Virus record (IMG/VR): IMGVR_UViG_3300044295_000022 | Span: 1 to 26,497 of that record | Length of the DNA stretch: 26,497 nucleotides | DNA from: a virus | Direction: 5' to 3' (one strand) | Part shown: positions 19,144-26,497 of the stretch, one piece after another | How the letters are laid out: every line of letters begins with the position of its first letter | Position numbering within the stretch: the first letter of the stretch is position 1 | Notes under the pieces: model-generated | The model's input: only the letters and a program-made list of their open reading frames with translations | Told to the model about the DNA's origin: nothing | Database searches by the model: none | Made by a program: the position numbers and the translations under genes

Positions 19144-19449
19144 TCAAGAGTAATAGGTGATGTTGAGCTTGGCGCCGCCAGTTTGCTCAATAAACTGAAT
19201 CTGGTTGATGTCGCCGTCATATTGCAGCGTCACACCAGCAGCCAAAGGCATCCCGACGCTGGCCGTGGGAGCCACGCCATCATCGCGCCAGCGCACAGCC
19301 TGGGCTTCAGGGGTAATGATTGCAATTCGCGGTGACCCAGCCAGGCCGCTCAAGTCTTTCTGAGGCACGGTCAACTTGGTAGCCGAACTTAGGCTGGTGA
19401 TCTGCTGGTAGCCCAGCACCGAGGTAATTGCTTTGAGGTTGATTGCCAT
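19144..19449 (-). CDS. Small conserved phage structural protein, 101 aa
   Basis: Begins MAINLKAITSVLGYQQITSL, with a second conserved-looking block EAQAVRWRDDGVAPTASVGM and the ending IQFIEQTGGAKLNITYY. I recognise this block from small phage virion proteins, usually annotated hypothetical; the fold looks all-beta. AAGGAG six bases before the ATG is an excellent ribosome binding site, suggesting high expression. The start overlaps the stop of the 22-residue-repeat protein. A minor capsid, decoration or tail-tube role is possible but not shown. Confidence 0.75.
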   Translation of the reverse strand: MAINLKAITSVLGYQQITSLSSATKLTVPQKDLSGLAGSPRIAIITPEAQAVRWRDDGVAPTASVGMPLAAGVTLQYDGDINQIQFIEQTGGAKLNITYYS

Positions 19450-20333
19450 CAGAATCTCCTTCGTTCAGTGAACGATCTTAACTTAAGAAAGTACTCCGCA
19501 ACAGTGGGTGCTGGTTGGCCCCCAATGACGATTGCCGCATCTTGCCCGACCGTTGAGTACGCGCCTGAAGCACCAGTGAGGACTCGATCAAGTGTGATTG
19601 AAGCCGACTCACCTGTGACGCTGTACGTACCATAGCCACACAAAATGTTGCGAACATACGAAATTGTCGCATTTTGGCCGGTCGTTGCATAGCTGCCTGC
19701 ATCGGCGGCCAAAATCCGCGATTTGTTGAGGTTGGCCGTTTGGCCTGCCGTAGTGTACGTGCCCGCGCTGCCCGCAACAACTTTGTTGCGCAGCACGATG
19801 GCCGTTTGCCCTGTGACTGCGTAGCTGCCGGCTTCGGCTGTGATGCTGTGCCCGCGCTTGAGCGTGGCTGGCTGGCCTGTAATGGCGTAGCTGCCAGCAT
19901 CGGCTGCGATGGCCTTTGATCGGTAGACGCCAGCGGTTTGGCCTGTCGTGCTGTAGCTGCCAGCACTGGCAGGCAAGACCTTGCTGCGGGTGATGTCGGC
20001 TGATTGGCCTGTTGTGCTGTAGCTGCCAGCTGCGGCTGAGAGCGCTTTGCTGTGTAAGACGTCAGCAGACTGGCCGCTGACAGCATAGCTGCCTGCGGCT
20101 GCTGAGATGGCCTTGTCTCGATAGATGGAGGCTGCTTGACCGCTGAGTGAATATGTCCCGTAAGCCGCAGTGAGTGAGCGGTTTTTGGCGACAACCGCAG
20201 TTTGGCCCGTAACCGTGTACGAACCCGCTGCGGCAACAACGATGTACTCAAGTGGTTCAAGGTCTAAACGCCCTCCATCCTCCTGAACAAGATAGGAACC
20301 ATCCTCACAAAGAAGATAGGCCACTACCCCCAT
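19449..20333 (-). CDS. Protein of ten 22-residue beta-repeats, 294 aa
   Basis: After an N-terminal block (YLLCEDGSYLVQEDGGRLDL, residues 6-25) the protein consists of ten repeats of exactly 22 residues (37-256) plus a partial eleventh, each with the core GSYxxTGQxA followed by four to five variable residues, a basic residue and a hydrophobic pair. The strict spacing suggests two short strands per repeat in a solenoid or stalk. A short C-terminal tail (EYFLKLRSFTERRRF) may be the anchor. No ribosome binding site is visible before the ATG, so translation likely depends on the upstream gene ending two bases earlier. A virion adhesin or stalk role is inferred. Confidence 0.8.
   Translation of the reverse strand: MGVVAYLLCEDGSYLVQEDGGRLDLEPLEYIVVAAAGSYTVTGQTAVVAKNRSLTAAYGTYSLSGQAASIYRDKAISAAAGSYAVSGQSADVLHSKALSAAAGSYSTTGQSADITRSKVLPASAGSYSTTGQTAGVYRSKAIAADAGSYAITGQPATLKRGHSITAEAGSYAVTGQTAIVLRNKVVAGSAGTYTTAGQTANLNKSRILAADAGSYATTGQNATISYVRNILCGYGTYSVTGESASITLDRVLTGASGAYSTVGQDAAIVIGGQPAPTVAEYFLKLRSFTERRRF
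19566..20225 (-). repeat. Ten 66-bp tandem coding repeats
   Basis: This is the DNA of the ten 22-residue repeats. Neighbouring units share long identical tracts, for example the words CTGTAGCTGCCAGC near 19950 and 20016, 66 bases apart. Sequence drift between units is mostly in the variable positions of the protein repeat. The array could change in copy number by recombination or slippage. Confidence 0.8.
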
Positions 20334-24033: not shown

Positions 24034-25560
24034 TTACGCTCCCATCCAGCCGGTGGATACAGTGCTTGGTCCGTATGAGCGGGCCACGCGGGTCGGTTCG
24101 CGGTACTCTCGGTGTGCCACTGGGAACGCAAACGTCACGGCGATGGCGTCTGCTGCGTCCGGTGAGGCTAAACCGCGAGCTTTCATGTCTTTCTTGCTCT
24201 CCAAGAAGATTGTGCCCCGCGAATCGGGCTTCATCATAGGCGAAATTAGATCAGTTTTTAAGAATCTGTCAAGCGGTATGCTGGCAGTTTTCAGCCATTC
24301 GCGCATGTCGCCCCACATTTCCGCTCGTTTGTTGCCGTACATGATCGGATTCTTGGCTTTGTTGCCAAAATTCACCCCTCTGACCTTGTAGCGCTGCTCT
24401 TTCAGCCGGTCCACGATGCCAGCCCCCAGCCCGCCTTCGTCGATCACCACCATCGCCGGCTTGTACTCCTCGATCACGTCGATGACGTGCCCCACCACGG
24501 TCATGGTGTCGTCGCCTCGGTGGCGCAAGAGCTTCACAATGTCACGCCCTTGCCGGATAGCGATCACGGTTGCGTCCGCCCCGAAGCGTGCCGGGTCCAC
24601 GCCCACCACGATTGGTGCTGAGTTGTCCTTGTACTTCGGTCTTGCCATGGCGTCGTCCACCACCGCCGCGCCAATGAACTGATCGTCACCCTCGTTGGGG
24701 AACTGACCGTAAACCTCGACGTGCGCCTGAGCTGAGTCGGGGCCGTATTCCTCGATGATCTGGTTGTAGGTCTGCTTGTCGGTGCCCTCGACCGTGCGCG
24801 CGTCCACGATCTTGGTTGTCCAGAACCCGCGCTTGCTGTTGAACGCCTCGTAGAAATACCCCGTGTTGCGCCGTGGGTTGCTGAAGGCCATCCAGAATCG
24901 GTTGGGCGTGTTCTCTGTGAAGAAGCCGCTGGTCACCGCCCAGATGGCGTCATCAATACCGCTGGCTTCATCAAAGATCACCATTACACCATCGAAGTTG
25001 TGCACCCCCGCGTAGGCGTCGGGGTTCTCCGCCGACCACAGCCGTCCCTCGACCGACCAGTAGCGCGTGCCCTTCTTCAGGTCGCGCTCGACCAGCTCCG
25101 TGATCCACTTGGCCGGCATCACTCGGGTGGCGCTGACCTCGAACCAATGGCTGTTGATGGACATCGCCAGCCACTTCGTAATCTCGGCCCAAGTGATTGA
25201 GCGCAGCTGATTTTCTGAGTTGGCCGACACGATGGTCGTCGAGCCGATGCGCGTGGACAGCATCCAGATTGTGATCCAACTGACCAGCGCCGACTTCCCG
25301 ATCCCGCGCCCCGAGCTCACCGCCAGTCGCAGGGTGTCGTAGTCGATCTTGCCGTTGTTTGCCTTGATGTGGTCGGCGATGTTTTGTAACACCTCGCGCT
25401 GCCATTTGCGCGGGCCTTGGAAGTGCTCCAGCGGCGTGCCCGCCTGCCCCCACGGATAGACGAACATGACGAACGCCAGTGGGTTGTCCTTGAGGGCCGG
25501 GCTCCATAGCCTGGCCATCAGTTCTTGTTCGTCTTGCGCGCTGTAGCGAGTAGTCTGCAT
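24034..25560 (-). CDS. terL: Terminase large subunit (packaging ATPase/nuclease)
   Basis: The 508-residue protein has the complete terminase layout. The ATPase part holds Walker A SGRGIGKS (residues 83-90), Walker B VMVIFDEA (192-199) with catalytic Glu, and a coupling-motif-like SNPRRN (227-232). The RNase H-like nuclease part shows VGVDPARFGADATVI (D322), VVIDEGGLG (D374) and SPDAADAIAVTFA (D468, D471) as the acidic metal-binding residues. It would pump DNA into the procapsid through the portal and cut it. TerL start follows the terS stop by three bases and the possible micro-ORF stop directly (TAATG); only a weak GGA precedes it, so coupling is likely. Confidence 0.96.
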   Translation of the reverse strand: MQTTRYSAQDEQELMARLWSPALKDNPLAFVMFVYPWGQAGTPLEHFQGPRKWQREVLQNIADHIKANNGKIDYDTLRLAVSSGRGIGKSALVSWITIWMLSTRIGSTTIVSANSENQLRSITWAEITKWLAMSINSHWFEVSATRVMPAKWITELVERDLKKGTRYWSVEGRLWSAENPDAYAGVHNFDGVMVIFDEASGIDDAIWAVTSGFFTENTPNRFWMAFSNPRRNTGYFYEAFNSKRGFWTTKIVDARTVEGTDKQTYNQIIEEYGPDSAQAHVEVYGQFPNEGDDQFIGAAVVDDAMARPKYKDNSAPIVVGVDPARFGADATVIAIRQGRDIVKLLRHRGDDTMTVVGHVIDVIEEYKPAMVVIDEGGLGAGIVDRLKEQRYKVRGVNFGNKAKNPIMYGNKRAEMWGDMREWLKTASIPLDRFLKTDLISPMMKPDSRGTIFLESKKDMKARGLASPDAADAIAVTFAFPVAHREYREPTRVARSYGPSTVSTGWMGA

Positions 25561-25634
25561 TATTTACGCGTCCACAGCAGATCGATCGCCCACAACGCCA
25601 CGATCAGCAACAGGCATAAGTACAGGACTGTCAT
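25560..25634 (-). CDS. Possible 24-aa membrane micro-ORF overlapping the end of terS
   Basis: In the frame offset from terS, ATG 25634 opens a 24-residue reading frame (MTVLYLCLLLIVALWAIDLL, then WTRK) that stops at TAA 25560-25562, overlapping the terL ATG as TAATG. A GAGGG ribosome-binding-like site lies eight bases upstream. The predicted product is one hydrophobic helix with a basic end, the layout of a small membrane peptide. It may instead be chance in a frame overlapping terS, so confidence is low. If translated, it would bring ribosomes exactly to the terL start. Confidence 0.35.
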   Translation of the reverse strand: MTVLYLCLLLIVALWAIDLLWTRK

Positions 25635-26058
25635 TGGATTGACCCTCAAGTTTGTTGACCGCATCCACCACATCGGCGAGGTTGATGACGCGGCGCTGCG
25701 CTTCCGCTAACGCCGCCGTGATGCTGATCTGCTGGTTCACATCCACACTGATGGCCTGTTTGGCCACCCAGCCGTGGACGTTTTGCAGTATGGCCAACGC
25801 CGCTTTGGCGTCACCCATCTTGGCTGCTTTGTGCAGCTCGGTGCTCATCTCCAGCTCGCCATCGGCGCGGCCTTTGGTGGCGGCCAGCTCGGCGATGGGG
25901 TCCAGCTGCGTTAGGCGTCGGTATTCTTCGGGCAACATGCCGGCGGCCAGCGCCAGCGTGTCACCTTTGAGGCCGAGCTTGGCGGCCTCATAAATGCGGT
26001 TAAGCGTCGCTTCGGTCGCTTTGACCTCGCGGATGGTCAACGGTAATGACTTGAACAT
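25564..26058 (-). CDS. terS: Probable terminase small subunit
   Basis: The 164-residue protein lies directly before terL, the usual place for the small subunit. An N-terminal helical part (LTIREVKATEATLNRIYEAA, then KGDTLALAAGMLPEEYRRL) has helix-turn-helix character fit for binding the packaging site, and the middle (KAAKMGDAKAALAILQNVHG) is helical for oligomer formation. The C-terminus is polar. AGGGA before the ATG supports the start. The 9-bp repeat array lies upstream and could be its binding site, as TerS proteins recognise pac or cos DNA. The call rests on position and helix pattern. Confidence 0.78.
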   Translation of the reverse strand: MFKSLPLTIREVKATEATLNRIYEAAKLGLKGDTLALAAGMLPEEYRRLTQLDPIAELAATKGRADGELEMSTELHKAAKMGDAKAALAILQNVHGWVAKQAISVDVNQQISITAALAEAQRRVINLADVVDAVNKLEGQSNDSPVLMPVADRGVVGDRSAVDA

Positions 26059-26101
26059 GGCGTTCCCTGCGCGTTATGCGTGTGCTGGAAGTGTAGCGTG
26101 T

Positions 26102-26128
26102 TTGCAAAAAATAAAAAAGTTTTTGCAA
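26102..26128. repeat. 9-bp perfect inverted repeat with A/T tract
   Basis: Arms TTGCAAAAA (26102-26110) and TTTTTGCAA (26120-26128) are perfect inverted copies around the 9-base spacer ATAAAAAAG. The site is about 45 bases upstream of the terS start, between it and the 9-bp word array. It could be an operator for a dimeric regulator or bent DNA at a promoter. Confidence 0.6.
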
Positions 26129-26316
26129 CCCCTCCGCGCCGGGACCGACCGGCCCCAGGGCCCTACCCGGGGGCCTGAATTCATTACGCAAAACTGACAG
26201 CAAGCCTTGGGTCACTTGGGTCATGGCCATGCGCGCCAGGCAGCCACATGGCCGCATGCCTTGGGTCATTTGGGTCATGCGTTTGCATGTGCATGCGCAC
26301 ACCGGCCAGGCCATGG

Positions 26317-26341
26317 CGCGCGGCCGCGCGGCCGGCCGGCC
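26317..26341. repeat. Adjacent GC-only palindromes
   Basis: Positions 26317-26330 (CGCGCGGCCGCGCG) are a perfect 14-bp palindrome and 26330-26341 (GGCCGGCCGGCC) a perfect 12-bp one. They lie between the second and third word clusters of the 9-bp array. Confidence 0.8.
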
Positions 26342-26350
26342 ATTGGGTCA

Positions 26351-26398
26351 TTTAGGTCATTTGGGTCATGCGTTTTCTTTTGACCCAAATGACCCAAA
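26351..26398. repeat. 18-bp inverted repeat formed by opposed word pairs
   Basis: Two direct copies at 26351-26368 face two inverted copies at 26381-26398, giving an 18-bp inverted repeat with one mismatch around a 12-base spacer. A second, nested inverted repeat (TTTTCTTTTG at 26373-26382 and CAAAAGAAAA at 26395-26404) overlaps it. The two cannot form together, so the DNA or RNA could switch between structures. Confidence 0.75.
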
Positions 26399-26416
26399 AG
26401 AAAAGGGAAGAGGCAT

Positions 26417-26438
26417 CCAGGGAATTCCCTGGCGCGCC
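26417..26438. repeat. 16-bp palindrome followed by an 8-bp palindrome
   Basis: Positions 26417-26432 (CCAGGGAATTCCCTGG) are a perfect 16-bp palindrome and 26431-26438 (GGCGCGCC) a perfect 8-bp one. They lie just before the last word cluster of the array and could be a dimer-binding site or a cleavage site. Confidence 0.8.
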
Positions 26439-26497
26439 GGGTTTTGGGTCATTTGGGTCATTGGGTCATCAAATTTAAATCGGCGCGGCTCAATTTG

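Follow-up and report, generated by a model that had tools for sequence, protein, structure and literature searches.

A short word repeated twelve times stands next to the packaging genes of a virus, and this raises the question of what such an array does and which protein it serves. We analyzed the full 26,497 nucleotides of IMG/VR record IMGVR_UViG_3300044295_000022 (the window) and compared its array with those of related phages.

The repeat array in the window

The initial annotation had described twelve 9-bp words upstream of terS, ten direct and two inverted, and our word search agrees. At no more than one mismatch, TTTGGGTCA occurs twelve times within 263 bp (window 26206-26468), with 10 copies on the plus strand and 2 on the minus strand (26381-26389 and 26390-26398). 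It had also listed one mismatched copy and one copy of 8 bp. There is indeed an 8-bp step at the end of the array, where the last copy (26460-26468) shares one base with its neighbor, but six copies carry a mismatch and only six are exact (starting at 26269, 26360, 26443 and 26452, and the two minus-strand copies at 26381 and 26390). The first base is C in the copies at 26206, 26215 and 26260 and A in the copy at 26342, and the copy at 26351 is TTTAGGTCA. With the word shortened to TTGGGTCA, 11 copies are exact. The whole window holds 15 matches to TTTGGGTCA against 6.2 expected, and 0 of 100 shuffles reach 15; its densest 263 bp hold 12, whereas none of 60 first-order Markov simulations of the window gives more than 4. 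The copies abut head to tail without a spacer, and their period of 9 bp is slightly less than one helical turn, in keeping with the earlier description. The features are collected in Table 1.

Table 1. Coordinates of the array and of neighboring features in the window
Feature	Position	Strand	Basis or remark
Word pair CTTGGGTCA CTTGGGTCA, words 1-2	26206..26223	+	Word search; same place as the terS-proximal words of relatives
Word pair CTTGGGTCA TTTGGGTCA, words 3-4	26260..26277	+	Word search
Word triplet ATTGGGTCA TTTAGGTCA TTTGGGTCA, words 5-7	26342..26368	+	Word search
Inverted word pair TTTGGGTCA TTTGGGTCA, words 8-9, 12 bp from words 5-7	26381..26398	-	Word search
Word triplet TTTGGGTCA TTTGGGTCA ATTGGGTCA, words 10-12, last step 8 bp	26443..26468	+	Corresponding block faces the AT-rich element in relatives
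Start of AT-rich element (AAATTTAAAT...), contig end	26469..26497	none	First 29 bases present
terS, gene next to the array	25564..26058	-	Not the cognate protein by covariation
terL, used for finding relatives	24034..25560	-	PHROG match
GC-rich element GGGTAGGGCC...GCGGAGGGG...TTTTTT between array and terS	26098..26180	-	Conserved independently of the word
DNA helicase, C-terminal end, at the left contig edge	2..334	+	Protein matches

Two overlapping open reading frames (ORFs) run over the array (26000-26314 on the minus strand and 26223-26495 on the plus strand), and neither has a PHROG match. The gaps between word pairs in relatives (12, 34, 39, 70, and about 100 bp) keep no reading frame. 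As far as this can be tested, the stretch is non-coding, as had been proposed. An Rfam search over the window gave no match. The nearest word lies 147 bp upstream of terS, and read toward terS the arrangement is <<<(44)>>(12)<<<(64)<<(36)<<, with arrowheads for words and gaps in base pairs.

The window is a fragment of a P22-like podophage, in which terS precedes terL and portal and coat genes of P22 type. The terS product has no PHROG or Pfam match; the gene is named by its position and by an annotated homologue in phage DSL-LC05. The contig breaks off at the AT-rich element, 29 bases after the last word, and a contig search with the last bases of the window found none carrying the missing part of the genome. 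The contig has no primase-helicase gene; the missing early region, which includes this gene in relatives, would fall between the left contig edge and the array. Elsewhere in the window, a virion-region protein of approximately 20-residue tandem repeats (AAAGSYAVTGQxA...) is encoded at 19449-20333 on the minus strand, and a small protein with an NrdR-like zinc ribbon, under the Pfam cut-off, is encoded at 1227-1409 on the plus strand.

Arrays in related phages

A search with TerL found 80 contigs at 83-88% identity; the nearest annotated genomes are MW202483 (79%) and phage DSL-LC05 (68%). Many of these relatives carry 9-bp head-to-tail repeats at the same site upstream of terS, with a word that varies from phage to phage: TTTGGGTCA, TGTGGACAA, TGTAGGCAA, TGTTGGCAA, TGTCGGCTA, TGTAGTCAA, and others. 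A pattern search for the word dimer of the window returned at least 120 stretches. Adding the results of two more searches and of a scan through bacterial genomes to the loci already found brought the set to 197 non-redundant loci. Over this set, a period of 9 accounts for 4145 tandem pairs, compared to 471-1053 for each of the periods 6-8 and 10-15, an excess of about fourfold or more. Several loci are without a clear array, and we excluded from the tests those weak arrays in which word calls are unreliable (for example, L260, L238, L246, L247, and L342).

Relatives with clear arrays share a common pattern toward terS, >>(70)>>(AT-rich ~100)<<(34)>>(12)<<(39)<<<. The AT-rich element is about 100 bp long, with AT maxima of 74-84% per 50 bp, and is followed by a facing word pair. 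Words 5-7 and 8-9 of the window together match the conserved >>(12)<< element. By this comparison, the array of the window appears to be the terS-side half of the relatives' arrangement, and the facing pair past the AT-rich element is expected beyond the contig end.

The array also keeps its place, as the initial annotation had suggested checking: in 134 of 134 measured relatives, loci selected for having an array, it starts 178-1186 bp from terS. It lies between leftward early genes and rightward terS, and its neighborhood with terS reflects genome order rather than recognition by TerS. GC skew, the other check suggested there, gave no consistent switch at the array in ten long relatives; the signal is weak, inconsistent, and uninformative as a sign of an origin. 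A search of the open-access literature with two of the word dimers found no paper, and within the papers searched the earlier remark that no described phage is known to have this motif is correct as regards the word itself. Two loci with primase-helicase relatives, L343 and L345, are on contigs of a Rhodoferax metagenome-assembled genome (MAG), a hint of betaproteobacterial hosts, although the binning may be wrong.

The primase-helicase wing and the word

Nearly all array loci encode a primase-helicase of about 764 amino acids, 1.3-3.8 kb from the array. Its Pfam match is DUF5906, with RepB_primase in addition in L152. A full-length model (mean pLDDT 74, pTM 0.38) has a PrimPol plus SF3 fold and best matches the C-terminal region (CTR) of the NrS-1 protein (Z 21.8, 279 aligned); the SaPI5 primase-helicase and PriRep1 also match, and the N-terminal part resembles PrimPol domains from phage S-2L and RepB'. 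A sequence search of solved structures matched NrS-1 alone (E 2e-10, residues 459-661). In phage pairs with different words, the last 45 residues of the protein are notably divergent. The C-terminal 155 residues are predicted to form a winged helix (mean pLDDT 79). Searched alone against the sequences of solved structures, this domain gave nothing convincing. By fold it matches, for the most part, winged helices from diverse families, with low scores (Z up to 6.4; Foldseek E above 0.1), and the P4 origin-binding domain is not among the matches listed.

Strands 108-113 and 122-126 of the C-terminal model flank a loop with residues that covary with the word, which places these residues in the wing of the predicted winged helix. 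The loop corresponds to residues 716-733 of L031 and reads G-W-V-D-L-G-R-V-A-S-G-D-F-Q-S-K-K-H in TTTGGGTCA phages; in the alignment, the stretch G-R-V-A-S-G-D-F-Q-S-K-K-H varies along with the word (Table 2).

Table 2. Wing residues and the array words found with them
Wing	Word
VAS[G/S/A]	TTTGGGTCA or ATTGGGTCA
KSR..D	TGTGGACAA
KSSLHD	TATGGACAA
ASREYQT	Mostly TGTTGGC..; also TGTGGG.CA and TGTAGGTCA
SSREFQT	TGTCGGCTA
TSREFP or TSREYP	TGTAGTCA.
ASRAHST	TGTAGGCAA
HSR..N	TGTGTG.CA

We placed all words on a common scale by similarity to three reference words, a choice that fixes rotation and strand, not bases. On this scale, residue 726 and base 2 agree in 140 of 143 loci, 92 with Arg and G and 48 with Gly, Ser, Ala, or His and T or A. 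The three exceptions are L011, L203, and L277. The word call of L277, a locus that also has TGTTGGCCA and TGTTGGCTA, is probably wrong, and L203 is so distant that its loop cannot be aligned with certainty. L011, with the wing GLLKSRAHTT and a TTTGGGTCA array in 9-bp steps, is the one clear exception to the code and is a recombinant, a mis-assembly, or a real relaxed case. The same wing (or GLLKSRANTT) is found in L131, L137, L140, L144, L151, L161, L166, L173, and L187, where words like TGTGGGTCA and TGTGAGTCA stand upstream of terS with a spacing of mostly 10 bp, not 9.

We then compared all columns of the primase alignment, built from 119 full-length loci (30.7 effective). Base 2 is best explained by residue 726, with a normalized mutual information of 0.79; residue 720, in the same loop, follows at 0.54, and the next column outside the loop reaches 0.47. 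Residue 726 is the best column for base 7 too, residue 724 is the best for base 6 (0.74), and base 4 is weakly explained by primase columns. With two exceptions set aside, residue 726 and base 2 have a phi of 1.0 in 117 full-length loci. On a tree built from the primase body without its C-terminal part, base 2 and residue 726 each change 7 times, with agreement in all 6 of the independent pairs that are supported (p 0.031). Base 6 and K724 agree in 7-8 of 9 independent pairs (p 0.008-0.016); L126, L167, L188, and L229, some with mixed words, go against the trend with K724 and G at base 6. The primases of L218 and L334, whose words are TGTAGGCAA and TGTGGACAA, respectively, are nearly identical: of about 755 residues, 30 differ, and 20 of these lie beyond residue 690, within the last 65 residues; it looks as if the C-terminal part and the array were exchanged together.

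As controls we took TerS, TerL, PolA, SSB-like, DUF2800, portal, DUF7227, and two small proteins, and none of them reaches the score that the primase has on the same loci. For base 2, TerS, TerL, PolA, SSB-like, DUF2800, and portal reach 0.35-0.44, compared to 0.84-0.90 for the primase. DUF7227 and one small neighboring protein reach 0.78-0.80 in sets of about 13 effective loci, in which the primase reaches 1.00. TerL was rejected as the cognate protein on its weaker association. Comparison among relatives shows the location, the architecture, and a tight word-to-wing covariation, and the array word follows the C-terminal wing of the primase-helicase, not TerS. Since word and wing covary, specific recognition of the words by the wing is strongly implied.

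A putative iteron origin and its alternatives

The array is very probably the iteron part of a phage replication origin, with each 9-bp word bound by the winged helix of the phage primase-helicase as a self-loading SF3 initiator. The initial annotation had named a replication initiator among the possible ligands, and that suggestion is strongly supported, with the protein encoded outside the window. Because the contig ends before the primase gene, we infer the cognate primase of this phage from relatives that share its word. The non-coding region carries short direct repeats, and an AT-rich element adjoins them in relatives, its first 29 bases being in the window. An initiator with primase and SF3 helicase is encoded nearby in relatives, its gene absent from the window contig; the repeat-specific C-terminal DNA-binding domain is seen by comparison, as a predicted winged helix whose wing covaries with the word. 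In the mechanism that we propose, the primase-helicase (PrimPol domain, SF3 helicase, and C-terminal winged helix) would bind each word through its winged helix, with the wing loop reading the bases that differ between phages. Base 2 would be read by residue 726 (Arg with G) and base 6 by residues 724 and 729 in combination. At the word pairs that face each other on either side of the AT-rich element, two helicase rings would load head to head; the loaded rings would open this element and prime new strands, and replication would start there. This mechanism is drawn by analogy with the SaPI Rep and P4 alpha proteins, and physical binding, ring loading, melting, and use as the origin are inferred.

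The array could instead be a pac site, where headful packaging would begin once TerS had bound the words. In headful phages pac is often close to terS, and the distance to terS in all measured relatives counts in favor of this. Nevertheless, TerS pairs that are 95-99% identical stand beside different words (L068/L160, L337/L208, and L226/L329), and this reading is therefore contradicted. The best TerS column reaches 0.41 for base 2, compared to 0.85 for the primase on the same loci, and no TerS column tracks the word as well as the primase wing does. TerS was rejected as the cognate protein on these grounds, and the suggestion of a TerS site in the initial annotation is contradicted with it; we consider packaging from the array very unlikely. 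A conserved element that is independent of the word also lies closer to terS than the array. This GC-rich element, GGGTAGGGCC...GG.GCC...ACGGAGGGG...AAACAATTTTTT, is found in the 170 bp before terS of relatives whatever the array word, and it would be a better candidate than the array for a packaging site or a terS leader.

A second alternative is an operator array for a transcription regulator, either a repressor or an activator, of divergent early and late promoters, and not an origin. The position between leftward early genes and rightward terS fits such a role. However, among the leftward genes compared (DUF7227 and two small proteins), none follows the word as closely as the primase wing does on the same loci, even if the scores of DUF7227 and one small protein come near with few effective loci. 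An operator in place of an origin is improbable, slightly less so than a pac site; a dual role of the array in origin function and autoregulation is possible. The least credible reading treats the words, above all TGTGGACAA, as altered forms of the DnaA box TGTGGATAA, to which host DnaA or a phage protein with DnaA domain IV would bind. In L155, L164, and L345, the TGTGGACAA-type word is a single base from this bacterial box, and MW202483 encodes a DnaA_C protein (PF08299), which made DnaA domain IV our first suspect. Yet PF08299 is found in 1 of 36 records only and is absent from the other 35, words such as TTTGGGTCA differ from the box at three positions, and it is the primase wing that the word follows. 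The TGTGGACAA words may descend from host DnaA sites or compete with them.

The proposed iteron origin has counterparts in known systems. In SaPI, Rep helicases use their C-terminal domain to bind iteron origins that lie downstream of their own gene, and two hexamers apparently take part (PMC7581432). SaPI replicons (Rep/PriRep1) and SCCmec Cch2 share with the present case an SF3/D5-like initiator helicase, C-terminal origin recognition, and short direct repeats downstream of the gene (PMC7581432). In contrast to SaPI and SCCmec, the putative origin here is beside terS, at the distance from the gene given above, the elements are P22-like podophages that encode their own PolA-type polymerase, the 9-bp words abut without a spacer, and many word types occur with matching wing residues. 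P4 alpha combines primase, helicase, and a winged-helix DNA-binding domain in one protein that binds origin repeats (PMC4234260); the domain combination is the same here, where binding of the repeats would be the counterpart. The P4 primase is of the Toprim type (PMC4234260), whereas the present one is PrimPol-like, with its RepB' and S-2L PrimPol matches. The NrS-1 primase-polymerase is the best fold and sequence match of the helicase and C-terminal region. Its Tail was reported as a new fold, and the available part of its description contains no iteron origin or specificity wing (PMC7102993). Initiator domain and iterons change together between related geminiviruses, in the rolling-circle Rep (PMC12548392), and between related PLE satellites, in RepA_N (PMC8263062), as word and wing do here; those initiators are unrelated to the present one.

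It is conceivable, if on balance doubtful, that many mutually exclusive origin types occur within a single gene order and are kept separate by a small number of wing residues, which follow a simple residue-to-base code and are exchanged when the C-terminal domain recombines together with the array. Conflict, in the form of origin-stealing satellites, origin-targeting nucleases, or exclusion between co-infecting phages, would drive this diversification. The winged helix at the end of PrimPol-helicases has been suspected of origin recognition, with the recognition helix and wing as likely contacts (PMC5862659). More than 100 natural origin/protein pairs now point to named wing residues for named bases. 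Most likely, part of a protein-to-DNA recognition code can be read from sequence alone in this freshwater phage family. Recognition becomes testable by single exchanges, the pairs suggest naturally distinct combinations of origin and initiator, and the code may offer a way to predict the origins of uncultured phages from their sequence.
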